Shown: piece by piece, positions 6,373 to 43,793 of the stretch
Layout: the number at the start of each line of letters is the position of its first letter
Position numbering within the stretch: the first letter of the stretch is position 1
Origin: an uncultured Prevotella sp.
Lineage (GTDB): Bacteria > Bacteroidota > Bacteroidia > Bacteroidales > Bacteroidaceae
Reading direction: 5' to 3'
Assembly: GCA_900553465.1 (NCBI GenBank)
Contig: USDT01000021.1
Location: forward strand, 1 to 46,784
DNA length: 46,784 bases
Notes under the pieces: model-generated
The model's database searches: none
What the model saw: the letters and a program-made list of their open reading frames with translations, nothing else
Told to the model about the DNA's origin: nothing
Position numbers and translations under genes: made by a program

Positions 6373-6504
6373 GATGTACTCGTCCTGACTTTCCAATATG
6401 GGCTTTGTTGCATTGCGAAACAGTCCATATTATGCCCCGATATGGGCCGTTTCGCCTCATGAAATAGCGTTCATTGAAGTGTAATATGGTCTCTTTCGCA
6501 TCGT
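6373..6504 (+). repeat. 22-bp repeat array, copy 1 (six units)
   Basis: Six contiguous 22-nt units start at 6373, 6395, 6417, 6439, 6461 and 6483. They begin GATGTACTCG, AATATGGGCT, GAAACAGTCC, GATATGGGCC, GAAATAGCGT and AATATGGTCT. The first unit ends CCTGACTTTCC, close to the first unit of copy 2 (CCTGACATTCC). The array lies between clpB (-) and the efflux operon (+). The remaining non-coding sequence 6009-6372 and 6505-6739 shows no gene; it is AT-rich on the left and has a TTTAACATCCGTT stretch near 6606. Confidence 0.75.
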
Positions 6505-6739
6505 GCTTCGTTTTTAAACAGCTCGCGGACTCCGCCGGACTGTCGTGAAAAAGGCTTTCTTCCGAATTTCATTTTCTGGTTAGGAGATTTCAGAATGTTA
6601 ATTATTTAACATCCGTTAGCATATCGTTGATAATCTGACATGAATATTGCTGCGTCTGCTCTCTCATAATCTATCATAGTGTGTTCCTGCATATTTCTGT
6701 ACCACTATACAGTCAATGACTGTTTGGGGTGGCTGATGA

Positions 6740-6762
6740 ACATTGCAACAAAGTTGCATGTT
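6740..6762. promoter_or_regulatory. candidate operator overlapping the -33 region of the metal efflux operon
   Basis: The palindrome TGCAAC-AAA-GTTGCA (6744-6758), with ACAT and TGTT outer arms, overlaps TTG at 6754-6756, which sits at about the -33 position for the TATATTTG box at 6771. A site of this kind would suit a repressor or MerR/ArsR-type sensor, but no regulator gene is next to it. Confidence 0.4.
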
Positions 6763-6770
6763 ATTATCTG

Positions 6771-6778
6771 TATATTTG
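6771..6778 (+). promoter_or_regulatory. TAnnTTTG promoter box of the metal efflux operon
   Basis: TATATTTG, 45 nt before the adaptor gene start codon. This is an exact match to the Bacteroidetes -7 consensus. Confidence 0.7.
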
Positions 6779-6822
6779 CACATCATTTTGCATACACTAA
6801 AAAATAATAACCTAAAAACGTT

Positions 6823-7992
6823 ATGAATAAAAGAACATTGATTGCCGGCGTTATGGGACTTATGGTTTTTGTTTCGTGCCATAACGGTAAAAGCGGCGAC
6901 CATGATGAGGACATCCATGCCGAAGAGGAGCACATGGAAAGTGGAAAACATGAAGAAGAGGAGGCGCATGCCGGCGAGATTGTGTTGCCGGTGGAGAAGG
7001 CCAAGGCAGCCGGAGTGGTGGCCGAAGTGATAAAGCCGGGCGACTTCCAGACAGTCATACAGACAAGCGGTAGCCTGCAGAGTGCTTCTGGTGACGAGGC
7101 ATCGGTTGTGGCAACGATGTCTGGTATAGTGCGTTTGCTCAAGCCGATGCCCGAGGGTGCAAAGGTAGAACGTGGACAGGCTCTGTTCAGTATATCGTCT
7201 GAGCACATGCAGGATGGCGATCCTGTCGACCGTGCCGGAGTTACTTACGAGACAGCCAAGCGCGAATATGAGCGTGCACAGAAACTCGTGAAAGACAAGA
7301 TAATATCTGAAAAGGAATTTAACGCCATAAAGGAGAACTATGATATGGCGCGTATAGCACAGAAGGCTTTGGCCGGAGCAAAGGGTAAGGCGGGCGTGAC
7401 TGTGGCGTCGCCTGCGACGGGATATGTCATGCAGTGTCTTGTAAAGAACGGCGACTACGTTACGGCTGGACAGCCACTTATGAGCGTCACACGCAACAGA
7501 CGACTTTATCTTGTGGCAGATGTACCTGGCCGCTATCTGCAGGAATTGGCTCAGGTGAAGACAGCACGGTTCATGTCATCATACGGTGGCGGACTCTACG
7601 ACCTGAGTTCGCTCAATGGCCGCACTGTGGCTTATGGCCGTACGACGAACGCCGGGTCTTCATACGTACCTGTGACATTCGAGTTTGATGCCACCGCAGG
7701 TCTGCTTCCGGGCATGGCCGTTACGGCATATCTTGTGACAGGAACGCGCAGCGGAGTGATGAGTGTGCCCGAGTCGGCTCTGACCGAGGAGGAAGGTACC
7801 AAGTATGTTTACGTACGACTGGATGATGAATGCTACGAGAAACGCGAGGTACGTACTGGTGCAAGCGACGGTGCTCGCAGAGAAATATTGGGCGGACTGA
7901 AGCCTGGCGAGACCGTGGTGACAAAAGGAGCGATACATGTGAAGCTGGCTTCGGCAAGCAATGCCATACCGGCCCACTCACATTCACACTGA
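6823..7992 (+). CDS. RND efflux periplasmic adaptor (CusB/CzcB-like lipoprotein)
   Basis: Membrane-fusion subunit of a tripartite heavy-metal exporter, 389 aa. It has a lipoprotein signal (MNKRTLIAG..., lipobox FVSC, Cys at about residue 20). A strikingly His/Asp/Glu-rich linker follows (about residues 21-52, many H-E and H-D pairs), and the C-terminus ends PAHSHSH. Both tails are likely metal-binding. The body shows the usual barrel-sandwich, alpha-hairpin (YERAQKLVKDKIIS) and beta-barrel order. It is first of three genes: 22 nt separate it from the pump gene. The metal cannot be read with certainty. The His-rich tails favour Zn, Co, Ni or Cu over drugs. Confidence 0.9.
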   Translation: MNKRTLIAGVMGLMVFVSCHNGKSGDHDEDIHAEEEHMESGKHEEEEAHAGEIVLPVEKAKAAGVVAEVIKPGDFQTVIQTSGSLQSASGDEASVVATMSGIVRLLKPMPEGAKVERGQALFSISSEHMQDGDPVDRAGVTYETAKREYERAQKLVKDKIISEKEFNAIKENYDMARIAQKALAGAKGKAGVTVASPATGYVMQCLVKNGDYVTAGQPLMSVTRNRRLYLVADVPGRYLQELAQVKTARFMSSYGGGLYDLSSLNGRTVAYGRTTNAGSSYVPVTFEFDATAGLLPGMAVTAYLVTGTRSGVMSVPESALTEEEGTKYVYVRLDDECYEKREVRTGASDGARREILGGLKPGETVVTKGAIHVKLASASNAIPAHSHSH

Positions 7993-8014
7993 TAAAACTT
8001 AACATAAGAAAGAA

Positions 8015-11000
8015 ATGCTGAACAAGATAATACATTTTTCGCTTCAGAACCGTCTTATGGTTCTTGTGGCGTCAGTGCTGCTTATGGTGGGAGGAGCATA
8101 CATGGCCTTTCATACGGAGGTCGATGTCTTTCCCGATCTGAACGCTCCGACTGTAGTTGTGATGACCGAGGCTGGTGGTATGGCAGCCGAGGAGGTGGAG
8201 CGTCTTGTGACATTCCCCATTGAGACAGCCGTCAACGGAGCGACCGATGTGCGCAGGGTGCGTTCGTCGTCAACAACCGGATTTTCTGTAGTATGGGTAG
8301 AGTTCGACTGGGATACGGACATTTATCTGGCGCGCCAGATAGTTTCTGAGAAACTTTCTACGGTGAGTGGAAGTCTGCCAGACAATGTCAGTCAGCCGGT
8401 GCTGGGGCCACAGTCGTCCATTCTCGGTGAGGTGCTCATCGTGGGATTGACGTCAGACAGCACGTCGATGCTCGACCTTCGCACACTTGCCGACTGGACC
8501 GTGCGTCCGCGTTTGCTGTCTACTGGCGGTGTGGCACAGGTGGCTGTGCTTGGCGGCGACATAAAGGAATATCAGATACTGATACACCCCGACCGTATGA
8601 AACACTACGGAGTGAGCCTTTCGGAGGTGATGGCCGCAACGCGTGGAATGAACCAGAACACCAGTGGAGGTGTGATATATCAGTATGGCAATGAATACAT
8701 CGTGCGCGGAATAGTTTCGGAGAACGATGTGGAGAAGTTGTCACAGTCGGCTCTCAGAACGGCTTCGGGTACAACGGTGACACTGGCCGACGTGGCCGAT
8801 GTGAAGATAGGTGCACAGCAACCCAAGCTGGGTGTGGCTTCGGAGAAGGGAAAACCGGCGGTACTGCTCACCGTAACGAAGCAGCCCAACACGGGAACGA
8901 TTGAGCTTACAGAAAAACTGGAGGAGGCCATAAAGGACCTTAAGAAGAACATGCCGTCTGATGTGCACGTGTCGACTGATATATTCAGACAGGCCAACTT
9001 CATAAACAGCTCGATAGACAATGTGCAGGAGTCGCTCATCGAAGGTGCCATCTTTGTTGTGATTGTACTTTTCCTGTTCCTTGCCAACGTCCGTACGACA
9101 GTCATATCGCTTGTCACTCTGCCGCTATCCTTGCTCATAACTCTGCTTGTGCTCCATTATATGGGACTGAGCATCAACACCATGAGCCTCGGAGGTATGG
9201 CCATTGCCATCGGCTCACTTGTGGATGATGCCATAGTGGATGTGGAGAATGTGTGGAAGCATCTGCGCCAGAACCGTATGCTGCCGGCAGAGGAACGTCG
9301 GCCGGTGCTCGACGTAGTATTCGATGCTTCGCGCGAAGTTCGTATGCCTATTCTCAATTCCACTATTATAATAGTTGTAAGTTTTGTGCCGTTGTTCTTC
9401 CTCAGTGGTATGGAAGGCAAGATGCTCATTCCGCTCGGTATCGCGTTCATTGTGGCACTGTTTGCATCGACTATCGTGGCACTGACACTCACACCGGTGC
9501 TGTGCAGCTATCTGCTTGGCGGACGCAAGGGTAGTGAAGGATTGCCAAAGGAGGCTTTTGTGGCAGTGTGGTTGAAGAAATATTATGAGGCGGCATTGCT
9601 TTGGGTGTTGGGGCATAAGAAGACCGTGGTAGGTGGTACGGCTGTGTTGCTCGTAGCGGCCATAGGCTTCTTCTTCACGCTCGGCCACAGTTTCCTGCCG
9701 GGATTCAACGAAGGTTCGTTCACGATAAACATCAGTTCGCTGCCCGGAATTTCGCTTGAGGAATCGGACAACATAGGTCGTCGTGCGGAGAAACTGCTGC
9801 TGACTGTGCCCGAGATAAAGACAGTGGCGCGCAAGACAGGACGTGCCGAGCTTGACGAGCACGCTCTGGGAGTGAACGTTTCGGAGATTGAGGCCCCGTT
9901 CGAACTGAAGGATCGTTCGCATGAGGAAGTGCTTGCCGACGTGCGAAAGAAACTGTCTGTGCTTACGGGTGTGAACATAGAGATCGGTCAGCCCATAAGC
10001 CATCGCATCGATGCAATGCTCAGTGGTACACAGGCCAATATTGCTATAAAGCTCTTCGGCGACGACTTGAACCGCATGTTCCTCATAGGTAACGAGATAA
10101 AGGAGTCGATTGAGTCGGTGGAAGGTATAGCTGACCTGAACGTGGAGCAGCAGATAGAACGTCCGGAACTGAAGATTGTGCCGCGCCGAGACATGTTGCG
10201 CAAGTATGGCATATCGCTTCCTGAGTTTGCGGAGTTCGTATCGGTGTGCATGGCCGGTGAGACTGTGTCACAGGTGTATGAGAGTGGTAAGAGCTTCAAT
10301 CTTGTGGTGCGTGTGGACGAAGATGACCGCAAGACAATGGAACGCATAGAGGACATGATGATAGACACGGCCGACGGACAGCGTATTCCGCTTACGGAGG
10401 TGGCTGATGTTGTGTCGGCCAAGGGTCCGAACACCATCAACCGCGAGAATGTGAAGCGCAAGATTGTCATCTCTGCCAATACAAGCGGACGCGACCTTCG
10501 CAGTGTTGTGAACGATATACAGAAACGAATTGACAGTCAGATAAAGCTGCCGGAAGGTTATCATATAGAATATGGCGGACAGTTCGAGAGCGAACAGGCG
10601 GCCAGCCGTACACTGATGATAACATCGCTGATGAGTATAGTGGTGATATTCCTGTTGCTTTATATGCAGTTCAAGAACTCTTTTGAGAGCGGTGTCATCA
10701 TGCTTAACCTGCCACTTGCACTCATCGGAGGTGTGTTCGCACTGGTGTTTACGACAGGTGAGGTGAGCATCCCGGCCATCATCGGATTCATTTCGCTGTT
10801 TGGTATTGCCACGCGAAACGGTATGCTGCTCATAACCCGATACAACGCGCTGCGCAATGAAGACGGATTGTCGGTACGTGAGAGTGTGCTGCGAGGTTCG
10901 CTCGACCGACTTAACCCCATACTTATGACAGCTCTAACATCGGCCTTGGCACTTGTGCCTCTGGCATTGAGAGGCGGTCTGCCTGGCAATGAAATACAAA

Positions 11001-11128
11001 GTCCGATGGCAAAGGTTATATTGGGCGGACTGCTTACGTCCACTTTCCTCAATGCGTTTATATTGCCCGTTGTGTATGAGTGGATGCAGGGAAAGGAAGA
11101 AAAGATGAAACGAAATAAAACGAAATGA
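8015..11128 (+). CDS. heavy-metal RND efflux pump (CusA/CzcA family)
   Basis: Proton-driven inner-membrane pump subunit, 1037 aa, the normal RND size with 12 predicted helices and two large periplasmic loops. The N-terminus (MLNKIIHFSLQNRLMV, then DVFPDLNAPTVVVMTEA) is characteristic of the heavy-metal (HME) branch. The TM4 signature reads AIAIGSLVDDAIVDVENVW. The Asp pair and DVEN differ from the CzcA pattern (DFG...DGAVV) and from the monovalent CusA pattern (GAMVDAAIVMIEN), so it belongs to another HME subgroup and the metal specificity is uncertain. The final codons overlap the next gene by 4 nt (ATGA). Confidence 0.94.
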   Translation: MLNKIIHFSLQNRLMVLVASVLLMVGGAYMAFHTEVDVFPDLNAPTVVVMTEAGGMAAEEVERLVTFPIETAVNGATDVRRVRSSSTTGFSVVWVEFDWDTDIYLARQIVSEKLSTVSGSLPDNVSQPVLGPQSSILGEVLIVGLTSDSTSMLDLRTLADWTVRPRLLSTGGVAQVAVLGGDIKEYQILIHPDRMKHYGVSLSEVMAATRGMNQNTSGGVIYQYGNEYIVRGIVSENDVEKLSQSALRTASGTTVTLADVADVKIGAQQPKLGVASEKGKPAVLLTVTKQPNTGTIELTEKLEEAIKDLKKNMPSDVHVSTDIFRQANFINSSIDNVQESLIEGAIFVVIVLFLFLANVRTTVISLVTLPLSLLITLLVLHYMGLSINTMSLGGMAIAIGSLVDDAIVDVENVWKHLRQNRMLPAEERRPVLDVVFDASREVRMPILNSTIIIVVSFVPLFFLSGMEGKMLIPLGIAFIVALFASTIVALTLTPVLCSYLLGGRKGSEGLPKEAFVAVWLKKYYEAALLWVLGHKKTVVGGTAVLLVAAIGFFFTLGHSFLPGFNEGSFTINISSLPGISLEESDNIGRRAEKLLLTVPEIKTVARKTGRAELDEHALGVNVSEIEAPFELKDRSHEEVLADVRKKLSVLTGVNIEIGQPISHRIDAMLSGTQANIAIKLFGDDLNRMFLIGNEIKESIESVEGIADLNVEQQIERPELKIVPRRDMLRKYGISLPEFAEFVSVCMAGETVSQVYESGKSFNLVVRVDEDDRKTMERIEDMMIDTADGQRIPLTEVADVVSAKGPNTINRENVKRKIVISANTSGRDLRSVVNDIQKRIDSQIKLPEGYHIEYGGQFESEQAASRTLMITSLMSIVVIFLLLYMQFKNSFESGVIMLNLPLALIGGVFALVFTTGEVSIPAIIGFISLFGIATRNGMLLITRYNALRNEDGLSVRESVLRGSLDRLNPILMTALTSALALVPLALRGGLPGNEIQSPMAKVILGGLLTSTFLNAFILPVVYEWMQGKEEKMKRNKTK

Positions 11129-12303
11129 CGATGAAAAAGGTTATTATAGTTGCTGCGGCACTGGTATTCGGACTGAATGCCGGTGCGCAGAGCATAGACG
11201 AGATACTGAGAAGTGTGGAGCAGAACAACAAGGAACTGCAGGCACTGGGCGAGCGGGGCAAGGCGGATGCGCTTGATATCGAGGCCCAGAACAATCTGGA
11301 GGATCCCAGCGTAGAGTACAGTCCGTTTTTTGCCAAAGGTGTTGACGGCATTGCTACTTCGGAACTTGTTGTGAAGCAGGGCTTTGATTTTCCGACAGTG
11401 TATGCGGCACGCAGCAAGTCGGGAAAGCTGCAGAAAGAAGTTGTTGATCTGGGTTATCAGACTTCTCGCTGTAATATTCTGCTTTCGGCAAAGCAGTTGT
11501 GTCTTGACCTGATACTTCTGAATCAGGAGCGTGAACTGCTCGAGAAGCGCCGCAAGAACGCCGAGGAACTGCTCACCATGTATGAAACGAGAATGAAGAA
11601 TGGTGATGCCACCATACTGGAGGTGAACAAGGTGAAGATGGACAGGATGAATGTACAGACGGAAGTGACGCAGAATGAAGTGGCACATCAGACGGCCTTG
11701 CAGTCGCTTCTGGCACTGAACGGCAATATGCCTCTTGAATTCAGCTTGAAAGATTATCCTTCCGGACAGGCCCTGGTGGACTATGAGGCTCTTTATGACA
11801 AGGCTGTGGCTTCCGAGCTGACGCTTCGTTCGGCACGTGCGGAGGTGAAGGCTTCGGCTCAGGAAGTGAAAGTGAACAGACAGAACTGGCTGCCTAAGCT
11901 GGAGTTGGGTTACAGACGAAACACCGACGGTTCGGATGCTAGCAACGGTTTCATGGTCGGCGCGTCGTTCCCTTTGTTCTCGGGACGCAACAAACTGAAG
12001 TCGGCCAAGGCAAGACTGCAGGAATCCACGCTGCAGCTGGACAATGTGAAGGTGCAGACAGAGAACAATGTGCGTTCGCAAGTTAATGAGATGAAGCAGT
12101 TGCGCAAGGCTGCAGACACCTATGATACGGCATTGCTCAATTCAACGCTCGACCTCCTGCGTAAGGCTGTGGAGGGCGGTGAGCTTTCGCTCATTGATTA
12201 TTATGTTGAGGCTGACGCCATATACAAGAATCTGCAGACGCAGATGCAACTTGAAAACAGATATCAGAAGGTGTTGGCTGAACTAACAAAGGGTGATTTG
12301 TAA
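11125..12303 (+). CDS. TolC-like outer-membrane efflux protein
   Basis: Outer-membrane factor completing the metal exporter, 392 aa. It has a cleavable signal (MTMKKVIIVAAALVFGLNAGAQ) and two outer-membrane-efflux repeats rich in alpha-helical coiled coil, for example QERELLEKRRKNAEELL and the matching C-terminal LDNVKVQTENNVRSQV segment. Shorter than Escherichia coli TolC, as is usual for CzcC-like partners in Bacteroidetes. The start overlaps the pump gene by 4 nt, so adaptor, pump and channel are one operon. Two hairpins at 12312-12349 and 12382-12415 follow. Confidence 0.9.
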   Translation: MTMKKVIIVAAALVFGLNAGAQSIDEILRSVEQNNKELQALGERGKADALDIEAQNNLEDPSVEYSPFFAKGVDGIATSELVVKQGFDFPTVYAARSKSGKLQKEVVDLGYQTSRCNILLSAKQLCLDLILLNQERELLEKRRKNAEELLTMYETRMKNGDATILEVNKVKMDRMNVQTEVTQNEVAHQTALQSLLALNGNMPLEFSLKDYPSGQALVDYEALYDKAVASELTLRSARAEVKASAQEVKVNRQNWLPKLELGYRRNTDGSDASNGFMVGASFPLFSGRNKLKSAKARLQESTLQLDNVKVQTENNVRSQVNEMKQLRKAADTYDTALLNSTLDLLRKAVEGGELSLIDYYVEADAIYKNLQTQMQLENRYQKVLAELTKGDL

Positions 12304-12311
12304 TAAATATG

Positions 12312-12349
12312 ATGCTCTGCTGTAACAGTAGGAAACTACGGCAGAGCAT
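12312..12349 (+). terminator. hairpin after the efflux operon
   Basis: ATGCTCTGC (12312-12320) pairs with GCAGAGCAT (12341-12349), extended inward by TGTA/TACG with one wobble. No T-run follows, so this is a stable 3' hairpin rather than a classical terminator. Confidence 0.45.
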
Positions 12350-12381
12350 TGAGAAAATACAGAACAATAAGTAGTGGATAC

Positions 12382-12415
12382 AAAAACAGGCAGGGCGAAT
12401 GTCCTGCCTGTTTTT
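12382..12415. terminator. bidirectional terminator between the efflux operon and the yitT-like gene
   Basis: A perfect 13-bp stem, AAAAACAGGCAGG and CCTGCCTGTTTTT, with an 8-nt loop. It gives a T-run on both strands between two convergent genes. Confidence 0.9.
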
Positions 12416-12429
12416 ATGTTGCGTGTAGT

Positions 12430-13355: not shown

Positions 13356-13731
13356 ACTTAAATTTTTATTGCATCAAAAAAAATCGTATGATATTTAGTG
13401 TAATGTTTTCTATTATGGCGTAGCACGAATTATTTACAAAAACCAATACAGAATGTTGTTTTATTAATACGTGTCTCAGTCAACCTGCTGATGTATCGGA
13501 ACATAAGTGCAGATGCCGTGTTTGTAATTTTTTTATGGCGCAGTTTTCCTGCTCAACCGATAAATAATAGGGGAAGAGAAATTACGTATAAATTCCGGAA
13601 AATCCGAAAAGGAAGAATTCTATCGTTAATAACGATTCGTCCGGGGAATCATAAACACAAAATTTGCTCATACTTCCCGCGTCTTTTCTCATGTCTGATA
13701 TCAGCGTTTTCTCAGAACACTCAGCTGGCGT

Positions 13732-14164
13732 ACTTACAATTTTTCTTGACTTTTTTTTGACAAAATAAAATCGCGAAAGAGATGTTAAGAAATGTAAAAT
13801 CAGGTGCGATAAAGGCTCTTTCTGGTCATACCGTCATGTAGCATACACTACCTTGCAGTACCGGATAGTCTTCCTGACATTCCGATTAAGGCCGTTTCAC
13901 GCCATGATTACGCCCATATTATGGTGTGATATGGAGCATTTCAGGGCCTGAAACGGGCAATATCACAAGCCGAAACGGTGCTTATTGCAGGACGAAAAAA
14001 TGAATGTCATACATAAGCTATTGCTGTTCAAAGACTTATGTGAAGTCCTTATAATTCGCGTATTTGCGTCCGAAGTAATGTCCGTTTGCAAATTCTCGCT
14101 TATTTTTCGGGGTAGAACTGAAAACTCAGACGAAAAAATCGCAGGAAACTGAAAATCTGTAAGT
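13732..14164 (+). mobile_element. 433-bp MITE-like element, copy A
   Basis: It ends in inverted repeats: ACTTACAATTTTTC at the left and GAAAATCTGTAAGT at the right. It aligns without gaps over its full length to the reverse complement of 22731-23163, at roughly 80-85% identity by eye. Inside are an AT-rich left arm (TTGACTTTTTTTTGACAAAA), six 22-bp units (13862-13993), and a right arm with CGCGTATTTGCG and TCGCTTATTTTTCGGGGTAG. No transposase is encoded and no clear target duplication is seen. A frame without stops on the minus strand is conserved in copy B but starts outside the element. The flanks 13356-13731 and 14165-14351 show no gene. Confidence 0.75.
13862..13993 (+). repeat. 22-bp repeat array, copy 2 (six units, inside element A)
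   Basis: Units start at 13862, 13884, 13906, 13928, 13950 and 13972. They begin CGGATAGTCT, GATTAAGGCC, GATTACGCCC, GATATGGAGC, GAAACGGGCA and GAAACGGTGC. Most keep the pattern of a G-A-rich head, a central GGnC, then ATTTC or ATATC and a 7-nt spacer such as AGGGCCT. Confidence 0.8.
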
Positions 14165-14345
14165 GCCCCATTTTGTTTTATTCCAGCGGAATGAAACACA
14201 GCTGATTCACTATTGAAGTCTCACTCTTCCCGTTGAAATCAATATCCCACATAATTATTTCCATTGAGCATTTCTTCGGATGCGGATGTGTGCCGGTGCT
14301 TTGTCCTGACTCTTGCCCGGTGCAGTTTTAAAGAAATTACAGGTA

Positions 14346-22324: not shown

Positions 22325-22730
22325 AAATGATGTTAAAATCGGCAAATCTTCACATTTTCATACATATCCGTTTCTTTCTTTTTTCCACGGTCATCATGTT
22401 GTGCTGTCCCTAAGAGTGATGTGCTGTGGTTATGATGTGCGGGTATGTTTTTGTCTTTTCAGTGAGAATATTTTCTGCTTTATGAATGGTAAAAAATTTT
22501 GACATTATGCCGCTTGTGTTCCGTCTGATTATCAACGGAAGACCATATTGTCGAAAAGAATATTTGGGGCTGTGGATGCTTATATCGTATGTATCATATT
22601 TGTTCTGTATTCTCTGTAGCGTCGGGAATGGTAATGTGGAAATCAGGTTGAGTCTGGTTTCAAGAAAACAGCAGCTTCAATCCCTAATTATTGTTGTTCC
22701 TGTCTGTTGAAAAGGAATGCAATATGTGGT

Positions 22731-23163
22731 ACTTACAGATTTTAAGTATCCAGTGATTTTTTCGTCTGAGTTTTCTGTTCTACCCCGAAAAATAAGCGAG
22801 AATTTGCAGACTGACTCTCCGGCGGACGCAAATACGCGAATTATGAGGACTTTACATAAGTCATTGAACAGTAATAACTTATTTTTGACATCCATTTTTT
22901 CGTCCTGCAATAAGCACCGTTTTGGCTTGTGATATTGCCCGTTTCAGGCCCTGAAACGCACCATATTACACCCTGATAAAGGCGTAACCATGGCGTGAAA
23001 CGGCCTTAATCGGAATGTCTGACGAACTGTCTGGGCCTGCAAAGCCGGTGCTGCTACATGACGGTATGACCGGAAAGAGCCTTTATTATGTTTGCTTTTA
23101 TATTTCTTAACATCTCTTTCACGATTTCTTTTTGTCAAAAAAAAGTCAAGAAAATCTGTAACT
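22731..23163 (-). mobile_element. 433-bp MITE-like element, copy B (inverted relative to A)
   Basis: The plus strand starts ACTTACAGATTTT and ends GAAAATCTGTAACT, which are terminal inverted repeats matching copy A. The whole element is an ungapped reverse-complement match to 13732-14164. The most conserved stretches are the TIR ends, CGTCTGAGTTTTC, TCTACCCCGAAAAATAAGCG, CGCAAATACGCGAATTAT, ATTTTTTCGTCCTGCAATAA and GGTCATACCGTCATGTAGCA (other strand). It occupies the divergent gap between the NigD-like gene and the alpha-2-macroglobulin gene. No transposase is present. Confidence 0.75.
22902..23033 (-). repeat. 22-bp repeat array, copy 3 (six units, inside element B)
   Basis: On the plus strand the unit boundaries are 22902, 22924, 22946, 22968, 22990 and 23012. 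Read on the minus strand the units begin CAGACAGTTC, GATTAAGGCC, GGTTACGCCT, AATATGGTGC, GAAACGGGCA and AAAACGGTGC. The order and content parallel copy 2. The remaining gap 23164-23650 is AT-rich with no supported gene. Confidence 0.8.
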
Positions 23164-23650
23164 TCCTCATCCGGGTTTTCTTTAAAACAGCAGATATTAG
23201 GAGTGAGGAAAAGTATAGAAAGCACGAGACTGTCTTGCAGGAATTATTCATTGGTCGTGACAACGTGAATTTATTATTACGCGAGGTTCATGCTGTCACG
23301 TTTCATACCATGCAGTGCCATCAGAAGGTATTGTTTTTCCTGTTTCAAGTTTTCTGTTTTTGCGTTTTCTGTCGATACCGTTTTGGTAAATTATTTTTAC
23401 AATATTCGTATTGCTTGTATGTCGGTTTTCTCATTTCCGCATTATCATAACGTGTCGCTTTTGACAGCCTTCGATGATACGCGATTTATGTTTTTCCCTT
23501 CTTCAGCCGTTTTCTTTTTCCTTCCGTAATGCCGTTTATGTTTCTCCTGCATACCTTGCTGTTGTCTTCAAACACGTTTCATTTGCGATAAAAAAACGGA
23601 AACATAAGTAAAAGTTTGTCATTTTGATTGCTCGTTGTCCGTAATATTCG

Positions 23651-33003: not shown

Positions 33004-33209
33004 CAAAGATAGTGCAAGCGAGTGGAAAGAAAACTTGCTTTCAATTTCCTGAGCGCCGCCTATTTTCTGTAAAGATAGTGCAAGCGAGTGGAAAGAAAGT
33101 TTGTTTTCAATTTCCCGAGCGCCGCCTATTTTCTGTAAAGATAGTGCAAGCGAGTGGAAAGAAAACTTGTTTTCAATTTCCCGAGCACAGCATATCTTCT
33201 GCAAAGATA
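33004..33209 (-). repeat. three 66-bp tandem repeats carrying promoter boxes for porQ
   Basis: A 66-bp unit is repeated almost exactly from 33005, 33071 and 33137. Each carries AAAGATAGTGCAAGCGAGTG, the AAGAAA(A/G)(C/T)TTG stretch and GCGCCGCCTATTTTCTG. On the minus strand the boxes TATCTTTG/A lie at 33004-33011, 33070-33077, 33136-33143 and 33202-33209, all exactly 66 bp apart. The porQ start codon is 21 nt past the first. The end boxes are TATCTTTG, the inner two TATCTTTA. The following 33210-33480 has no gene. Confidence 0.85.
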
Positions 33210-33559
33210 CAGCAAAGTACGAGCAGAATAAAATAAATTCATTTATTTTTTTGATAAGTGTCCGTATTACAGCTGCTATGGCTCCGCACTGGTGTCATGT
33301 GTCCGCAGGGTGTAAACCGTGTGCTTTCCATGCCTGTTTGCCATTGTTCTTTTCATACTACCGTTGTTGGTTAAACGGCCGTTCCAAAGCCTTTTTGCGC
33401 CCGTCTGTATGTTCTCAGCGTCGCGCCTGTAGATGCAAATTTTATTTAACATCTGTTTACTTTTCGCTGATGGGATTTAACATCCCGTTTTTTCATTTCC
33501 AGGAGATGACAGACCACAATATGGCATCCTAAAGCACCGTTTCGCTCTGACCGTAAACC

Positions 33560-33691
33560 GGTTGCCGGTCCGTCGGTTTGCGAAATTGCCTATATCATGG
33601 TGCGGTAAAGTCTGTTTCAGGGCATGGTTTGGTCTTTTTCGGCGTGTACTATGGCCTATTTCAGAGCATGAAACGGGCCGTTTCGCACGAT
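33560..33691 (+). repeat. 22-bp repeat array, copy 4 (six units)
   Basis: Units start at 33560, 33582, 33604, 33626, 33648 and 33670. They begin GGTTGCCGGT, GAAATTGCCT, GGTAAAGTCT, GGTTTGGTCT, ACTATGGCCT and GAAACGGGCC. The last unit contains the perfect palindrome GAAACGG-G-CCGTTTC. Weaker units may precede (AAAGCACCGTTTCGC at 33531). The right flank has TTTTCGCGATATTTCGCG near 33761, like the arm of elements A and B. The array lies in the divergent porQ/tonB gap; 33692-34089 has no supported gene. Confidence 0.75.
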
Positions 33692-34089
33692 GAAGAAATG
33701 CTGTGTAAAAGTCGGTGCTGTATAAATAGTTTATTATCAATGTGTTATGGATGTTTCGTGTTTTCGCGATATTTCGCGTCAACCGGCCGTCAGTTCGCTC
33801 CGACGTGATTTTTCAGAACTTCCGACGCGAAATATTTAACAATTCTCGCACCGTTTTTTGTTTATTTATACATCGGCATCCTGTATACCCGTGTCCGTGC
33901 CATGTGGTGTTCCTTCCCATAAAGCCTGTGTCGGCATAATGCCGGCAGAAAATTCATTGTCGGCACTACCGTCGTGTCACGGTTCGTGCATGCCTTGTTG
34001 GTGTGTGCCGTCTGTGCCCGTTGTGTCAGCGTGTGTCCGTAGTCATATTGCTGCGGATTGGCGGCCGGGATAAAAATGGAGCGATAGAT

Positions 34090-37460: not shown

Positions 37461-37516
37461 AACATTAAAGAACTTTAAAATACAAGGAGAAACTGCTGAA
37501 ATAATCAAAAAAACAA

Positions 37517-37524: not shown

Positions 37525-37538
37525 CAGTCGGTTTCAAT

Positions 37539-37626
37539 GGAAAGGTGCTCGAGTGGCTGAAGAGGCACGCCTGGAAAGCGTGTGTGCGTCAAAAGCGTAC
37601 CGGGGGTTCGAATCCCCCTCTTTCCG
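37539..37626 (+). tRNA. tRNA-Ser (anticodon GGA)
   Basis: 88 nt, class II with a long variable arm. The acceptor GGAAAGG pairs with TCTTTCC (discriminator G at 37626). The anticodon stem CACGC/GCGTG flanks loop CTGGAAA, anticodon GGA at 37573-37575. The T arm is GGGGG-TTCGAAT-CCCCC. No CCA is encoded. Decodes UCC and UCU. The exbB gene starts 20 nt downstream with no separate promoter visible. Confidence 0.97.
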
Positions 37627-37646
37627 CTTCACAAAAATACGTCCGT

Positions 37647-38486: not shown

Positions 38487-38995
38487 AACAAGGTATGCGG
38501 CAATATTCCACAGAGAAGCTCTCACATCGGGTTCTCTATGTTCTCACAGCTGTGATAGCGGTTGTGTTCTGTCTGTTCTATTTTGTCGGATACGACCAAC
38601 CGTTTGAAGACAATCCGGAATACAATGCCCCGCAGTTTACGGGCATGCTTGTGGGTTTTGTCGTTTTTTTCGTTGTAGCTTCAGTAGTGGTCGGCCTTGC
38701 TGCGCTTGTCATAAGCATTCGTAAGCGCGGCGGTTCTGAAGGCATTGTCAACGGCATACATGTCGCACGCATTGCTTCGGTCATTACTGTGTTCACTGTG
38801 TTGCTTCTCATTGTCACCTTTATATTGGGTTCCGGCGATGCTATTAATATCAATGGCGAGAAGTATCAGGACGCCTTTTGGCTCAAAATTGCTGACATGT
38901 TCGTCAGCTCCATCATTGTGATGCTAGTCCTTTCGGTTGCTGCCGTTGTGTTTGGAGCGACACGTTATCTCAGAAAAAAAGACCATAAATGCTGA
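38483..38995 (+). CDS. small membrane protein in the exbB-exbD cluster
   Basis: 170 aa with four predicted transmembrane helices, for example VLYVLTAVIAVVFCLFYFVG and MLVGFVVFFVVASVVVGLAA, and a periplasmic loop with GDAININGEKYQD. The start overlaps exbB by 4 nt and the end overlaps exbD by 7 nt, so it is translationally coupled. I recognise no named domain. Proteins of this size are, from memory, seen between exbB and exbD in Bacteroidales, so a stator accessory role is an inference. Confidence 0.8.
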   Translation: MKQGMRQYSTEKLSHRVLYVLTAVIAVVFCLFYFVGYDQPFEDNPEYNAPQFTGMLVGFVVFFVVASVVVGLAALVISIRKRGGSEGIVNGIHVARIASVITVFTVLLLIVTFILGSGDAININGEKYQDAFWLKIADMFVSSIIVMLVLSVAAVVFGATRYLRKKDHKC

Positions 38996-39522
38996 TAAGA
39001 AGAAGGAGACATACGGTTCCGAAGCTCGATGCCACGTCAACAGCCGACATCTCTTTCATGTTGCTGACGTTTTTCCTTGTTACGACTTCCATGGATTCGG
39101 ACAAGGGGCTCATACGTCAGCTCCCTCCCGCCGACACTGAAAACCAGACCGAGGCCCCTGTTGTGGCCCGCGAGAATCTGATGATGTTTAGAATAACATC
39201 GGCCGATCAGCTTCTTCTTAACGACACTGCGGTATCTACAGACAATCTTCGTGACGACATACGCAAGTTCATTGTAAGCCACGGCGACAATCATTCCATC
39301 GGCATAGATGCAGATCCCGCGTCGTCCTACGACACTTACTTCAGACTACAGAATGAGATTGCCGCCGCCTATGCCATGGTGCGCAACGACGTGGCAATCA
39401 AACATTTCGGCCGCGTTTACGGCCGTTGTAATCAGGACGAACGCGATTATGTGAGAAGCCGTTGCCCGCAACGCATAATCGAAATATACGATAAGGAAGG
39501 AGGAACGCAGCATGCAGATTAG
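38989..39522 (+). CDS. exbD: ExbD/TolR family protein (first copy)
   Basis: 177 aa. A short basic N-tail (MLIRRRRHTVPKLD), one membrane helix with the essential proton-carrying Asp in STADISFMLLTFFLVTTSMD, then a periplasmic domain. Partner of the ExbB channel. It has longer than usual C-terminal sequence (RNDVAIKHFGRVYGRCNQDE) where normal ExbD ends. The start overlaps the preceding gene and the end overlaps the second exbD by 11 nt. Confidence 0.9.
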   Translation: MLIRRRRHTVPKLDATSTADISFMLLTFFLVTTSMDSDKGLIRQLPPADTENQTEAPVVARENLMMFRITSADQLLLNDTAVSTDNLRDDIRKFIVSHGDNHSIGIDADPASSYDTYFRLQNEIAAAYAMVRNDVAIKHFGRVYGRCNQDERDYVRSRCPQRIIEIYDKEGGTQHAD

Positions 39523-39994
39523 GCGACACCGCAGGCCTGAAGTTCCGATGCTGAATACCGCATCGCTTCCGGACCTTATATTCACCGTTCTTTTCTTCTT
39601 TATGATGGTCACACACATGCGGACTGTCACACCGAAAGTGAAATACCACGTTCCGAACGGCAGCGAACTGACGCGCCTTTCGAAGAAAAACATCATTTAT
39701 TATATATATATAGGTGTGCCCGAAAAGTCTGTCTCAGATTCTGACAATGGCGGCGTGACTCGCATACAGCTCAATGACAAGTTTGTCACACCGGCTGACA
39801 TAACAGATTATATGACGTATGAGATGGCATCAATTATGCCATCCGAGCGCGACCGCGTCATGGTTTCGGTCAAGGCCGACCGCTCCACACACATGCGGAT
39901 AATCAGCGATGTGCGTCAGGCTTTGCGCGAGGCAGGCGTGCGCAGAGTCAGTTTCTCTGCTACAGGCGTGAATGATAAATTAACAGAAAAATGA
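39512..39994 (+). CDS. exbD: ExbD/TolR family protein (second copy)
   Basis: 160 aa, paralogue of the preceding gene. N-tail MQIRRHRRPEVPMLNTAS, membrane helix with conserved Asp in LPDLIFTVLFFFMMVTHM, then periplasmic domain ending ALREAGVRRVSFSATG, the ordinary ExbD C-terminus. Two ExbD-type proteins with one ExbB is the common arrangement in Bacteroidetes, where they may form a mixed stator. The start overlaps the first exbD by 11 nt. Confidence 0.9.
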   Translation: MQIRRHRRPEVPMLNTASLPDLIFTVLFFFMMVTHMRTVTPKVKYHVPNGSELTRLSKKNIIYYIYIGVPEKSVSDSDNGGVTRIQLNDKFVTPADITDYMTYEMASIMPSERDRVMVSVKADRSTHMRIISDVRQALREAGVRRVSFSATGVNDKLTEK

Positions 39995-40004
39995 TATGAA
40001 TTTG

Positions 40005-40035
40005 TTGTTATATTCATCATTTTATCCTATCTTTG
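40005..40035 (+). promoter_or_regulatory. promoter of the Lrp-type gene
   Basis: TTG at 40005-40007 and TATCTTTG at 40028-40035, 18 nt before the start codon. Confidence 0.6.
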
Positions 40036-40053
40036 CGCAAAATATAAATTAAA

Positions 40054-40545
40054 ATGGCATATCACAGTTTAGATTTATTGGATAAAAAGATCCTGAAACT
40101 TATTGCCGATGATGCCCGCATACCGTTTCTTGAAGTGGCGAGGGTATGCAATGTGAGTGGTGCGGCAATACATCAGCGCATTCAGAAACTGACAAGTCTT
40201 GGCATTCTGAAGGGTTCGCAGTTCATCATCGATCCGGAAATGATAGGTTATGATACGTGTGCCTACATCGGATTGTGTCTTAAGGATCCTGAACGTTTCG
40301 GCGAAGTGGTTGACGAACTGAGAAAGATACCGGAGGTGGTGGAGTGTCATTACACCACAGGCGGTTTCGACATGTTCATCAAAATCTATGCTTTCAACAA
40401 CCACCATCTGCTTGATATTATTCACGACAAGCTTCAACCTCTGGGCTTGGCACGCAGCGAGACAATAATATCATTCAATGCTGCAATCAACCGTCAGGTG
40501 CCGATATCAAACATTCTTGTATCGAAGGAAGAGGAGGAAGAATAA
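40054..40545 (+). CDS. Lrp/AsnC family transcriptional regulator
   Basis: 163 aa. N-terminal winged helix-turn-helix (LDKKILKLIADDARIPFLEV, recognition helix VSGAAIHQRIQKL) and C-terminal RAM ligand-binding domain (CAYIGLCLKDPERFGEVVDEL, VECHYTTGGFDMFIKI). The amino-acid ligand and target genes cannot be read. It is transcribed alone from its own TATCTTTG box. The extra acidic tail KEEEEE is odd but short. Confidence 0.93.
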   Translation: MAYHSLDLLDKKILKLIADDARIPFLEVARVCNVSGAAIHQRIQKLTSLGILKGSQFIIDPEMIGYDTCAYIGLCLKDPERFGEVVDELRKIPEVVECHYTTGGFDMFIKIYAFNNHHLLDIIHDKLQPLGLARSETIISFNAAINRQVPISNILVSKEEEEE

Positions 40546-40578
40546 GGCTGAGCTGTATTGTTTCAGATTTTGACAAAT

Positions 40579-40635
40579 GTCCGACCTTAGAGCAGCATGT
40601 ACATCTGGCGCTGCTCATGGCCGGACAAGTTTTTT
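40579..40635 (+). terminator. terminator of the Lrp-type gene
   Basis: TGTCCG (40579-40584) with CGGACA (40622-40627), and inner GAGCAGC with GCTGCTC, followed by TTTTTT (40630-40635). The T-run overlaps the last codon of the convergent folA. Confidence 0.75.
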
Positions 40636-41116
40636 ATGGTCTTTCGTAATCGGCGAAAGAATATTCAAACAAGTGTTTTTCGTCTTTCTGGTGGCTCTCT
40701 CTGTTTGTGAGAGTCCAGTCAGAGTAGTCGGGGAAGAAGGCATCGGCTTCCTGCGGAGTGTCGTCAATCTCGGTGAGCAGGAGTCTGTCTGCAAATTTCA
40801 TTGCCTGTTCGTAAACGCTCGCTCCGCCTATGATGAACACGTCCTCGTCCTCCTTGCAGTTGTTCAGAGCCTCTTCCAGCGACGAGTATTTGTCGCATCC
40901 CGGAAACTCGCTGTCGCTGCGGCTCAGTACCACATTGCGTCTGTTGGGCAGTGCACCTTTAGGTAATGATTCGAATGTGCGGCGTCCCATGATTATGGTA
41001 TGGCCTGTGGTGAGTGCCTTGAAACGCTTGAGGTCGTTGGGCAACCAGTACAGCAGTTTGTTGTTATGGCCTATGGCACGGTTACGCGCCACGGCAGCTA
41101 TGATGCTTATGCTCAT
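40634..41116 (-). CDS. folA: dihydrofolate reductase
   Basis: 160 aa. Reduces dihydrofolate with NADPH, regenerating the cofactor consumed by the adjacent thymidylate synthase. Motifs: SIIAAVARNRAIGHNNKLLYWLPNDL, seen as AIGHNNKLLYWLPNDL with the catalytic Asp; GRRTFESLP for NADPH; FIIGGASVYEQA. It is last in the rsmF-like, thyA, folA operon, 25 nt after thyA. Confidence 0.96.
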   Translation of the reverse strand: MSISIIAAVARNRAIGHNNKLLYWLPNDLKRFKALTTGHTIIMGRRTFESLPKGALPNRRNVVLSRSDSEFPGCDKYSSLEEALNNCKEDEDVFIIGGASVYEQAMKFADRLLLTEIDDTPQEADAFFPDYSDWTLTNRESHQKDEKHLFEYSFADYERP

Positions 41117-41141
41117 TGTTCTGTATGTTCTTTTGTTAATG

Positions 41142-41936
41142 TTATACGCTCACTTTCGCGCTTATGTGGTCCCACGGGTCGTATCCTTCCAGACAGAAGT
41201 CTTCATATTTGAAGTCGAACAGGCTCTTCACGTCCTTGTTCAGAATCATTCTCGGCAGCTGTCGCGGTGTGCGTGTGAGTTGCAGACGGGCCTGGTCAAG
41301 GTGGTTAAGATACAGATGTGTGTCGCCGGTTGTATGTATGAAGTCGCCGGCTTTCAGTCCCGTCACCTGTGCCATCATCATAAGCAGTAGCGCGTATGAG
41401 GCGATGTTGAACGGCACACCGAGGAACGTGTCGGCCGAACGCTGATAGAGTTGCAGCGAAAGGCGGCCATCTGCCACGTAGAACTGGAACAGACAGTGGC
41501 ACGGTGGCAGCGCCATCTGGTCTACCTCAGCCGGATTCCATGCACTCACCATCATGCGCCGTGAGTCAGGATGATGCTTTATCAGGTCTATGACATTGCT
41601 TATCTGGTCGATCGTTCCGCCGTTGTAGTCGGGCCACGAACGCCACTGATGGCCGTATACCGGTCCGAGGTCACCATTCTCATCGGCCCATTCGTTCCAT
41701 ATTCTCACACCGTGTTCCTGAAGATATTTCACGTTGGTGTCGCCCTTGAGAAACCACAACAGCTCGTATATTATCGACTTCAGATGCAGTTTTTTTGTGG
41801 TTAGCAACGGAAAACCATCTTCCAGATTGAATCTCATCTGGTGTCCGAACACGCTAAGTGTTCCTGTTCCCGTGCGGTCAGTCTTTTTTGTGCCCTCCGT
41901 AAGAATGCGGTCGAGCAGGTCAAGATATTGTTTCAT
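41142..41936 (-). CDS. thyA: thymidylate synthase
   Basis: 264 aa, the normal ThyA size. Methylates dUMP with methylene-tetrahydrofolate. The active-site Cys lies in [12 protein letters not shown] (about residue 146), preceded by dUMP-binding [12 protein letters not shown] and followed by [20 protein letters not shown]. The C-terminus ends ISAKVSV. The start overlaps the upstream methyltransferase gene by 17 nt. Works with FolA downstream. Confidence 0.97.
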
Positions 41937-43326
41937 TTCTTTTGATGATGATTTCGTTTTGTTCCGGAATGTGCTGACTCTTTATCTTCCATTCCTGCGG
42001 ATACAGATTGTTGGCGCGGTTGCCGATGTTCTTCTCAAATCCAAGCGGCATGCCTTTGTACGTGAGCAGCACGAAGCCTTTGGGCGTGCCGTCGGGTAGG
42101 GGCACCGCTTCCTTGCGCAGAAAGTTTATTGCCTGCGTGTAGTCTATATCTACACTGGCAAATCTGTTGCGGTCGAGCCGTGTCGAAAGAGCCAGCGACT
42201 GGTCGGGCACCATGTCCTTCCCTTTGCGCGTTCCGATGGTTATTCCGGCATGAATCACGTTCAGACCTTTTGCAGCGGCGTCATACACGTCGGCCCATTT
42301 CTTCGGTATTGCCACCAGACGGTCGCCTCTCTCTCTTGTCTCGAAGTCGTCGCTGCCGGTCAGCGGAAGGCTCACAGTCTTGTCTGTTTTTCTGTTCTGC
42401 TTTTTGTTTGCGGATGCCTTCGCTGGCGTGTCATGCTGTCCGTGTTTCCTCAGTACGGTCATGAACAGTCCCTCGCCCTCGCTCGTGCCGGGCAGAAAGC
42501 GGTATGACGTATTGTCGCCTACCAATGGTCCCGTGATGTTCCACTCCGGACTGATGGCTATCTCAACGAAATCCGCTCCCAGCTCTTCGGCTATCCATGC
42601 CGCGTTCTCCTCGTCCTCGTGGGCATTGAACGTGCATGTGGAGTATATCATCAGGCCGCCCGGCTTCAGACACGGCCATATATCGCTCACAATCTCGCGC
42701 TGCAACCGGCGGCAGTTCTCCACATTCTGCACACTCCATTCGCTTATCGCGCCTTCGTCCTTGCGGAACATTCCCTCGCCGGAACACGGCACGTCGGCCA
42801 GTATGATGTCGAACATGAGCCCCGACTTTCTGAAGTCTCGCGGATAGTTGTTGGTCACAATAACGTCCGGATGGCCGAACTTCTGCATGTTCTCGCTCAG
42901 AATGTTTGCCCTCGTCCTGACGGGTTCGTTGCTTACGAGCAGGCTGCCCTCAGGCAGGAATGTGCGGCACGCTGTCGATTTACCGCCGGGAGCGGCACAC
43001 AAGTCGAGCATTCTCACACTGCCGGTCACCGTCTGTCGCAACACGTGTGCCACAAACATCGACGATGCTTCCTGCACATAGTATGCCCCGGCATGCAGCA
43101 GCGGATCGAACGTGAAGTTCGGTCTTTCGTTCAGATACACTCCCGTAGGACACCATGCCACGTCGCTCCTCTTTCCGATTATTGCGGTGTGGGCGATGTC
43201 ACACTTCAGCGGATTCAGTCTGATGCTCACCGGTGCTTCATCCTTCAGGCCGGTTGCGAGCGACTCAAACCTGTCGTCTCCCATCAGCTCCCGCGTGTAT
43301 TTTATGAATTCTTCGGGCAGTGTCAT
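41920..43326 (-). CDS. RsmF-like rRNA cytosine-C5 methyltransferase (NOL1/NOP2/Sun)
   Basis: 468 aa. SAM-dependent m5C methyltransferase. SAM motif [10 protein letters not shown], catalytic Cys pair in [10 protein letters not shown] and [14 protein letters not shown]-terminal FEDxxx-type domain, and a C-terminal RsmF-like extension ([23 protein letters not shown]). The target is probably 16S rRNA, but this cannot be told from sequence. First gene of the operon with thyA and folA. A TACATTTG box lies about 20 nt upstream of the start. Confidence 0.92.
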
Positions 43327-43348
43327 GTCTGTATTATTAATTTATGTG

Positions 43349-43356
43349 CAAATGTA
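43349..43356 (-). promoter_or_regulatory. promoter -7 box of the rsmF-like/thyA/folA operon
   Basis: TACATTTG on the minus strand, 22 nt before the start codon. Confidence 0.6.
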
Positions 43357-43547
43357 GTAAATATATTCCACAATCAGTCCATTATGTTTCATTGATTGGC
43401 TTCCACGTTGTTCACATGCCATATGCCGGTTGCATGCGAGTACTGTTTATGTCAGTTTATTATTATCTGTGCCGAATTTAACAGCTTCCACAGTTCTGTA
43501 TAAATATACAATTATCTGTTCTGTATAATGCATAAATATTCAGCGTA

Positions 43548-43615
43548 AGTGCTCAAAACTCGAATATTTTCGAGCAACAGGTCGTTCGGTCGCAAATACG
43601 CGAGTTTTGAGCACT
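43548..43615. repeat. perfect 15-bp inverted repeat beside array copy 5
   Basis: AGTGCTCAAAACTCG (43548-43562) and CGAGTTTTGAGCACT (43601-43615) enclose 38 nt. The insert contains CGCAAATACG just before the second arm, matching the CGCAAATACGCGA motif of elements A and B. The flanks 43357-43547 show no gene. Confidence 0.7.
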
Positions 43616-43661
43616 TTGCGCATTTATCTGACAATCAACAGCTTACGGATTATTGCATCGC

Positions 43662-43793
43662 GGACCGACTTATTTTGTGTTGCGAAACAGTCTTTTTCAG
43701 GGGGCAAAACAGCCCATTTCAGGGGCTGAAACGGGCGATATCGTGTGCAGATTCGGGCTATATCAGGAGGCGATTCGGGCTCTTTTGTTTCAG
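43662..43793 (+). repeat. 22-bp repeat array, copy 5 (six units)
   Basis: Units start at 43662, 43684, 43706, 43728, 43750 and 43772. They begin GGACCGACTT, GAAACAGTCT, AAAACAGCCC, GAAACGGGCG, GATTCGGGCT and GATTCGGGCT. Units 2, 3 and 5 end with AGGGGGC, AGGGGCT and AGGAGGC. This is the cleanest copy for seeing the period. It lies in the divergent gap before the 44.2-kb gene. 43794-44224 has no supported gene; a long A/T-rich stretch precedes the gene. Confidence 0.8.

Follow-up and report, generated by a model that had tools for sequence, protein, structure and literature searches.

The published repeats nearest to the elements described here are PINSR and BrickBuilt. PINSR is the P. intermedia/nigrescens group-specific repeat, an intergenic sequence of unknown function that has 177 and 184 copies per genome and no terminal inverted repeats; it is missing from most strain-specific conjugative or mobilizable transposon (CTn/MTn) regions, and about three-quarters of its positions are common to two strains (PMC4755523). 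BrickBuilt is a miniature inverted-repeat transposable element (MITE) of Porphyromonas gingivalis, in whose strain W83 tandem repeats of 41, 23, and 22 nt had been noted earlier (PMC4596501). We analyzed a stretch of 46,784 nt from an uncultured Prevotella sp. (GCA_900553465.1, contig USDT01000021.1, forward strand; hereafter the window), which is chromosomal DNA of a Prevotellaceae bacterium and carries five intergenic arrays of degenerate 15-bp palindromes that follow one another at a 22-bp pitch. Such arrays recur along the chromosomes of relatives at even intervals of some 10–15 kb. We give about an even chance to the reading that they are phased operators for a dimeric DNA-binding protein and mark evenly spaced chromosome-architecture sites.

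PINSR resembles these arrays in lying between genes, in its many copies per genome, and in being missing from most conjugative transposons. It differs in being reported as one 188-bp sequence of one clade, and the accessible part of its description mentions neither a 22-bp pitch nor even spacing. Compared by description alone, PINSR may belong to the same class, its array structure having gone undescribed. BrickBuilt comes from the same bacterial order and resembles the arrays in anatomy, with an intergenic leader, a run of repeats of about two helical turns, and a tail. However, its repeats are 23 nt long, it has 19 copies and IS5-type terminal repeats, its units show 0–11% mismatch and expand or contract between strains, and no even spacing is mentioned in the sections available. 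The BrickBuilt terminal repeat GAGACCTTTGCA occurs in the window at chance level (4 matches with ≤2 mismatches, 4.2 expected), with no match at an array. The repetitive extragenic palindromes and bacterial interspersed mosaic elements (REP/BIME; PMC12306157) are likewise numerous intergenic palindromes and are thought to be protein sites, including sites for gyrase. The unit consensuses found here lack their initial GTAG or CGTC and keep the 22-bp pitch, and nothing resembling even spacing was found in the part of that literature available. The matS/MatP, SlmA, and Noc sites are also comparable, being palindromes dispersed along the chromosome that a dedicated protein recognizes. Those sites are single, of fixed sequence, and regionally biased, whereas the arrays consist of degenerate sites, lie at even intervals, and are species-specific in sequence. 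To our knowledge, and in the literature search made here, no bacterial chromosome element has a comparably even backbone spacing. In the titles and abstract openings surveyed, from which most subscription papers were missing, neither palindromic arrays with a 22-bp unit nor an even spacing is described for the Prevotella group.

The five arrays of the window, separated by 7.5, 9.0, 10.7, and 10.1 kb, are:

6388–6497, minus strand: A1 array, where five 22-nt units fit; its neighbors are clpB and an RND-type efflux operon
13884–14015, plus strand: A2 array, six units called, the last one weak
22880–23011, minus strand: A3 array, six units called, the first one resembling the flank
33582–33691, plus strand: A4 array, five fitting units
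43662–43793, plus strand: A5 array, six units called, the first one weak

The unit consensus is GAAAcGGnCcATTTCAgGgnnt. A sequence-only reading of the window had proposed five arrays of six units each, and a scan of the whole window at lags 10–44 ranks these same five places as the top five lag-22 windows, with 70, 60, 59, 54, and 45 matches of 110. The lag-22 scores of A5, A2, and A4 exceed the best window at any other lag; A3 (54 matches) has one window above it at each of lags 21 and 28 (both with 56) and, at lag 44, the window of A1 (55), an array that is conspicuous at that lag but not at lag 22. Within the 132 bp that the sequence-only reading had assigned to each array, lag 22 is the best of lags 3–69 in A2, A3, and A5; the best lag is 66 and then 22 in A4, and 44, then 66 and 22, in A1. 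The sequence-only observation holds with small corrections, and lag 22 is conspicuous overall. The proposed six units hold for A2, A3, and A5, each with one weak or flank-like end unit, and not for A1 and A4, where five fit; one end unit of A1, A2, A3, and A4 as first delimited does not fit. In the window, a profile built from the units picks the five arrays alone, and the reversed window yields no match; the profile had been trained on these same five arrays. As 22 bp corresponds to two helical turns, the units of an array lie on one face of the DNA. In P. gingivalis, BrickBuilt_16 likewise sits between clpB and an efflux gene, as A1 does in its gap (6009–6852); this is probably a coincidence.

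The closest genome in the collection searched was that of Leyella lascolaii khD1, whose cytidylate kinase is 86% identical to that of the window, and it served as the reference for comparisons. The pattern extends well beyond the window, so that confinement to it, named by the sequence-only reading as a refutation, does not apply: three L. lascolaii contigs covering 1.54 Mb contain 82 arrays (42, 25, and 15), typically 14–16 kb apart and built of a unit other than that of the window. On contig C5 (744,918 bp) there are 43 lag-22 windows, compared to 0–7 at each other lag from 14 to 35. A profile trained on C5, with the unit GGAAAAGGCTTTTCCGCGGTGC, detects 42 arrays there at scores ≥30; applied to the reversed sequence and to one first-order Markov sequence, it detects none. 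Contig C3 (577,582 bp) yields 25 arrays and its reversed control 0; for the first 220 kb of C17 the two counts are 15 and 1. In Xylanibacter rarus, 400 kb contain 25 arrays of the unit AAAAgGtggCCTTTTGCAaTGC, with scores of at least 38.5 compared to 31.6–35.6 for three control matches, and in Segatella maculosa 360 kb contain 16 arrays of the unit AATATGACTcATATTGCnnggC and none in the control. Lag-22 arrays are also present in X. caecicola (160 kb) and Prevotella F0043 (200 kb). The array-bearing relatives X. rarus, S. maculosa, and Prevotella F0043 each have palindromes of their own at a common 22-bp pitch. Most arrays have 4–8 units. The palindrome core TAANNNNYTGANWWTCARNNNNTTA occurs in 41 of 151 genomes of the family, with 86 forward matches against 2 in the forward control, a count of the core sequence alone.

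All 42 arrays on C5, the 25 of X. rarus, the 16 of S. maculosa, and the 16 of F0043 lie outside called genes over most of their length. Genes were called with a simple home-made caller, by which 71–89% of the sequences are coding, so gap lengths are approximate. In the window, as the sequence-only reading had noted, every complete gap above 800 bp has an array and shorter gaps have none, but this does not extend to a rule, as an array is found in 30 of the 66 called C5 gaps of 800–5000 bp. The predominance of divergent gaps in the window (four of five) also does not generalize. The share of C5 gaps of 600–5000 bp that have an array is 15/35 for divergent, 7/17 for convergent, and 15/45 for tandem gaps, and none of the 16 F0043 arrays lies in a divergent gap (10 tandem, 6 convergent).

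The 22-nt period is present in other repeats of this group too. A lag scan of 80 loci gave 31 peaks at lag 22, 44 at lag 21, and 0–14 at other lags from 15 to 33, and many of the lag-22 sequences are non-palindromic. A sequence-agnostic palindrome scan made pitch 22 conspicuous in F0043 (7, compared to 0–2); it gave 4 in X. caecicola, the same as at pitch 33, 8 in S. maculosa (9 at pitch 23, 7 at pitch 33), 1 in X. rarus, and 7 in 79 other loci, where pitch 18 gave 21. The three L. lascolaii contigs gave 0, 0, and 2, because their units are too degenerate for that scan. S. maculosa has a second kind of 22/23-nt array made of near-perfect palindromes such as TTATCACCATGGTGATAA (contig C3, for example at 91,429 and 323,463 of the joined contig), which the count of 16 excludes. 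X. caecicola has non-palindromic, high-identity 22-nt tandem repeats on C55 near 83,555 and 130,425 (joined contig).

The spacing of the arrays is markedly even. For spacings below 35 kb, the coefficient of variation (CV) is 0.29 on C5, 0.33 on C3, 0.28 on C17, 0.45 in X. rarus, and 0.36 in S. maculosa, whereas random real gaps give 0.63–0.76 (P ≤ 0.006 in each of the five contigs, 2000 draws); the difference persists when voids are removed from the candidate gaps. The 41 spacings on C5 range from 7.7 to 58 kb, with 38 of them within 7.7–24.3 kb and the smallest at 7.68 kb. None is below 7 kb, as against some 9–12 expected, and random draws of 42 real gaps never reached this minimum (0 of 5000 at each of four gap cut-offs), nor did length-weighted draws (0 of 2000). 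Short-spacing exceptions are found on C3 (5.2 kb) and C17 (6.8 kb). In F0043, where arrays were placed by hand, pooling the 16 arrays across their five palindrome types gives over-dispersion (CV 0.51, 0.83 expected, P 0.012), and the smallest spacing is 5.0 kb (P 0.002).

Voids of 40–180 kb occur in each species scanned for spacing, with none on the C17 stretch. The largest, at 230–410 kb of L. lascolaii C3 (180 kb), contains mobile-element genes; ten proteins sampled there include two of integrase type, a NikA-like mobilization protein, an ArdC domain, DUF4099, and a transposase. By its gene content this void looks like a genomic island without arrays. It begins near the maximum of the cumulative skew, yet a link to the terminus was set aside on the same gene content. 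Ten proteins sampled from the X. rarus void include a relaxase plus housekeeping genes.

Within a genome, the units resemble samples of a genome-wide consensus more than they resemble tandem copies. Among 526 units of L. lascolaii the mean identity is 0.508 for adjacent units, 0.467 for non-adjacent units of the same array, and 0.480 for units of different arrays; the corresponding values are 0.483, 0.451, and 0.462 in X. rarus (128 units) and 0.518, 0.412, and 0.458 in S. maculosa (98 units). Neighboring units are thus slightly more alike, and non-neighbors within an array are no more alike than units of different arrays. Units with the same index in different modules have an identity of 0.417, compared to 0.391, a comparison that is confounded, since arrays often end before the later indices are reached. 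The two arms of the units showed no consistent covariation in the 526, 128, and 98 units, a test of unit arms only. A few arm pairs in L. lascolaii reach z values of 2–4 with a small effect (for example 0.679 paired, 0.638 expected) and others are negative, as are several pairs in S. maculosa. The information per unit within one genome is 12–14 bits. Sites of a symmetric protein would show such a pattern and paired RNA would not. The near-equal identity within and between arrays, together with the lack of consistent arm covariation, favors selected binding sites over minisatellites and RNA hairpins; hairpins were rejected on the covariation result. A strand polarity of the arrays was also considered and rejected. 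The unit profile agrees with the GC skew in 63 of the 82 arrays of L. lascolaii. The leader described below agrees with it in only 33 of the 70 arrays where it scores ≥15, and the agreement of the units is therefore read as a compositional bias.

Three of the five array positions of the window are kept in L. lascolaii. The clpB/efflux gap of A1 and the gap of A3 are both present there with an array in each, and the ortholog of the gene block right of A4 has an array alongside; for the left neighbor of A5, the nearest array is 4 kb off. The three L. lascolaii orthologs of A1, A3, and A4 score 98–105 with the L. lascolaii profile and 18–27 with the window profile, whereas the window arrays score 35–53 and 79–100, respectively. 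The L. lascolaii profile was trained on C5 and these orthologs lie on C17; the window-profile half of the comparison is circular, because that profile was trained on the window's own arrays. Orthologous arrays thus follow the unit of their own genome, a concerted change at three sites. Two neighboring L. lascolaii arrays of the 82, at C5:717,872 and 727,403, are of the window unit type, and this stretch is perhaps a foreign, transferred, or lagging segment. The L. lascolaii gap orthologous to that of A3 contains about four tandem units of ~205 bp next to the array, seen by eye, and none was noticed in the window's gap. Synteny with L. lascolaii breaks in the A4 gap (33216–34070) and at A5 (43389–44225), which places arrays at rearrangement breakpoints.

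Most Leyella arrays are preceded by a leader, GCAAATACGCGagTTTTgaGc..TTT.CgTAA..CgTTGAcAaTCAGC.g.TTACgC, and in aligned Leyella arrays the first unit begins in a fixed register about 90 bp from the leader start. The leaders and flanking landmarks of the window are:

6302–6363, plus strand: A1 leader-like region, weak, score 11
14006–14067, minus strand: A2 leader, score 47.7, overlapping the last, weak A2 unit called
22828–22889, plus strand: A3 leader, score 42.9
33715–33776, minus strand: A4 leader, score 27.0
43592–43653, plus strand: A5 leader, score 52.7, starting with GCAAATACGCG and containing the dyad core
43498–43509, plus strand: left AT-rich box of A5, GTATAAATATAC, at −94 relative to the start of the leader; in L. 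lascolaii many copies fall at −92 to −95
43907–43922, plus strand: right-hand motif of A5, TGTCAAAATTTTTTAC, 315 bp after the leader start
43933–43944, plus strand: right AT-rich box of A5, GCATAAATATGC, offset 341; several L. lascolaii copies at 339–342

The leader scores ≥24 in 51 of 63 arrays (5 of the window and 58 of L. lascolaii), with a profile iterated on the same arrays. A 58-nt leader profile has 62 matches on C5, C3, and C17, of which 61 lie no farther than 200 bp from an array; the reversed control has none. The 36-nt leader core lies within 200 bp of 73 of the 82 L. lascolaii arrays (40/42, 20/25, and 13/15), compared to 3–5% of random places; C17 (the 13/15) and X. rarus were outside the training of the profile. 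This looser core also has 30 matches away from arrays on C5 plus C3, and 22 in the three contigs when reversed. It stands beside 14 of 25 X. rarus arrays (3% of random places) and 1 of 16 in S. maculosa, and in 79 loci of other species it has 4 matches scoring ≥20 against 0 in the control, three of the four then having 22 as their best lag. On the upstream side, the start of the leader recurs in inverted form, often together with an AT-rich box at −92 to −95; on the downstream side follow TGTCAATATTTTTTAC and often a second AT-rich box, at offsets that step by about 22 with unit number. The L. lascolaii offsets of the right-hand motif are mostly 292–293, 314–316, 336–337, and 356–357, and the A5 landmarks at −94, 0, 315, and 341 equal offsets found there. 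The leader has an inverted repeat around GCAAATACGCG, and its core is nearly palindromic. Each half of the core resembles the IHF consensus, and the whole resembles two back-to-back IHF-type sites.

The operator reading starts from what the computation shows: palindromes at a fixed pitch, a place between genes, even spacing, units that vary almost independently, concerted change at three orthologous sites, and a leader in register. One dimeric DNA-binding protein, or a small number of them, would use the arrays as clustered operators that selection on binding maintains, with a dimer at each unit along one face of the helix. The dyad core of the Leyella leader, IHF-like by resemblance, may bend the DNA beside the bound array. 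Less surely, the resulting nucleoprotein platforms might organize the chromosome as anchors of loops or supercoil domains, or as loading sites, with a reach of perhaps 7–20 kb that would call for one platform per stretch of backbone. As the specificity of the protein drifts, the arrays of a genome would track it. The sequence-only reading had suggested a protein-binding, nucleoid-organizing role, and the even spacing, the consensus-like units, the lack of consistent arm covariation, and the concerted change lend this indirect support.

Its suggestion of a partition-like site found no support in the ParB/parS sense. ParB clamps reach about 10 kb, which would have fitted the array spacing. However, ParB_N has a single match in 4 of 6 genomes searched and 2 or 3 in the other two. 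In the four ParB sequences recovered from six species (the window species excluded), the helix-turn-helix is nearly unchanged, differing by one Ala/Thr and one Lys/Arg substitution, while the arrays differ. On these results we rejected ParB or a Noc-like paralog as the array reader, and ParB looks unlikely as the array-binding protein. The window has no parS site with ≤3 mismatches to the consensus. Canonical parS with ≤1 mismatch gave a mixed picture: four of the six genomes have it, although for one of these the control is equal, and neither L. lascolaii nor L. stercorea does. Lrp/AsnC, considered for its octamers, has 2–3 matches per genome and is uninformative for array binding. CRISPR was rejected, as the units are contiguous and degenerate and no Cas domain was found among the 20 window proteins scanned, a subset of the open reading frames.

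Several results weigh against the operator and architecture reading. The slightly greater likeness of adjacent units points to some local copying, and an array-bearing segment of 492 bp has itself been copied as a module within the window, in inverted orientation and at 83.5% identity:

13684–14175, plus strand: A2 segment, 492 bp
22720–23211, minus strand: A3 segment, the 492-bp copy of the A2 segment

The L. lascolaii gap orthologous to that of A2 is 286 bp long and has no array. Across three genus pairs, 27 ortholog-flanking gene-sides carried an array in at least one of the two genomes and only 1 carried arrays in both, so array positions are hardly conserved between genera in this small sample. 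Two X. rarus spacings are below 5 kb (2.0 and 4.2 kb). No lag-22 array was found in 40 kb of Prevotella aff. ruminicola Tc2-24, and L. stercorea has 0 matches to a two-unit pattern that gives 28 in L. lascolaii, although it could carry another palindrome, which was not searched for. No trans factor emerged from the candidates tried, the ParB test being negative. The main difficulty is F0043, with at least five palindrome types by eye and one array mixing two types in register. One protein cannot easily read all of these; either several related proteins do one job there, or shape matters over letters.

Architecture fits best, because a cis function of limited reach explains the even spacing most directly; the other reading that would explain it is transposon target immunity. 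The arrays could be, or formerly have been, mobile intergenic MITE-like elements such as BrickBuilt, with transposase target immunity setting the minimum spacing. The A2/A3 copy, the lack of A2 in L. lascolaii, the anatomy shared with BrickBuilt, and flank repeats common to the flanks of other arrays (53 of 58 in L. lascolaii, 15 of 25 in X. rarus, 7 of 16 in S. maculosa) speak for this. Of the MITE hallmarks, ends like terminal inverted repeats are seen by eye on A2/A3 and AT-rich boxes flank the L. lascolaii module, and no target-site duplication is readable. However, the units are unlike copies of a master, with which the confounded same-index comparison agrees, and the three orthologous arrays differ in species type. 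The C3 void, with its integrase-type and mobilization proteins, is free of arrays, three of the five positions are kept in L. lascolaii, the A2/A3 end motif GGnACTTACAGATTTT is not general (1 match on C5 and 0 on 400 kb of C3, with ≤2 mismatches), and the F0043 arrays have no common leader by eye. We consider a mobile origin unlikely. The array-free C3 void and the three kept positions also leave the sequence-only suggestion of a transposition substrate mostly without support, despite the copied 492-bp segment and the lack of A2 in L. lascolaii. Sites of DNA topology read by shape more than by sequence, for example strong gyrase sites of the BIME kind, would provide some 110–180 bp of phased bendable DNA per 10–15 kb. 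Array lengths of mostly 4–8 units, the even spacing, and the joint over-dispersion of unrelated palindromes in F0043 are as such sites would have them, but 12–14 bits per unit exceed what shape alone should need and the AT- and GC-rich blocks are by eye not cleanly 11 bp apart, and we regard this explanation as improbable.

Two further explanations fare worse. A transcribed element (a promoter, terminator, or structured RNA acting on neighbor genes) would suit the intergenic location, the leader inverted repeat around GCAAATACGCG, and the restriction of the F0043 arrays to tandem or convergent gaps. It is at odds with the lack of consistent covariation in the unit arms, with the lack of any Rfam match in the window apart from a tRNA, with the weak preference for gap orientation in L. 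lascolaii, and with an even spacing that gene control does not call for, which leaves it quite improbable. Neutral minisatellites would account for tandem 22-mers and have company in the other 22-nt tandem repeats of these genomes, some of high identity, but units of the same array are hardly more alike than those of different arrays. That and the even spacing largely refute this explanation, to which we attach very little weight.

Besides clpB and the efflux operon, the window encodes a YitT protein, CorA, MatE, alpha-2-macroglobulin, LytB, cytidylate kinase, a polyprenyl synthetase, and an RsmF-type protein. A tRNA-Ser (GGA) at 37539–37627 is its sole Rfam (gathering cut-off) or ARAGORN match. 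Adjoining A4, positions 33005–33209 hold 3.1 copies of a 66-bp unit with 92% matches; about 44 of 52 matches in the L. lascolaii genome are further copies of it, which makes it a second dispersed repeat.

The wider proposal, to which we give somewhat less than an even chance, is that the Prevotella group has a genome-wide, even lattice of such platforms, with palindromes every two helical turns and one platform per 7–20 kb, in which selection keeps the geometry while the letters vary by species, and in F0043 by array, tracking fast-evolving dimeric proteins. If true, this lattice would correspond, in bacteria, to domain boundaries set at regular intervals. With their species-specific unit and conserved pitch, the arrays offer a natural experiment on how a DNA-binding protein and its many sites co-evolve. 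Should the arrays be architectural, a map of the chromosome domains of abundant gut and oral bacteria would be legible from sequence, and the question of what sets domains of about 10 kb would become directly testable.

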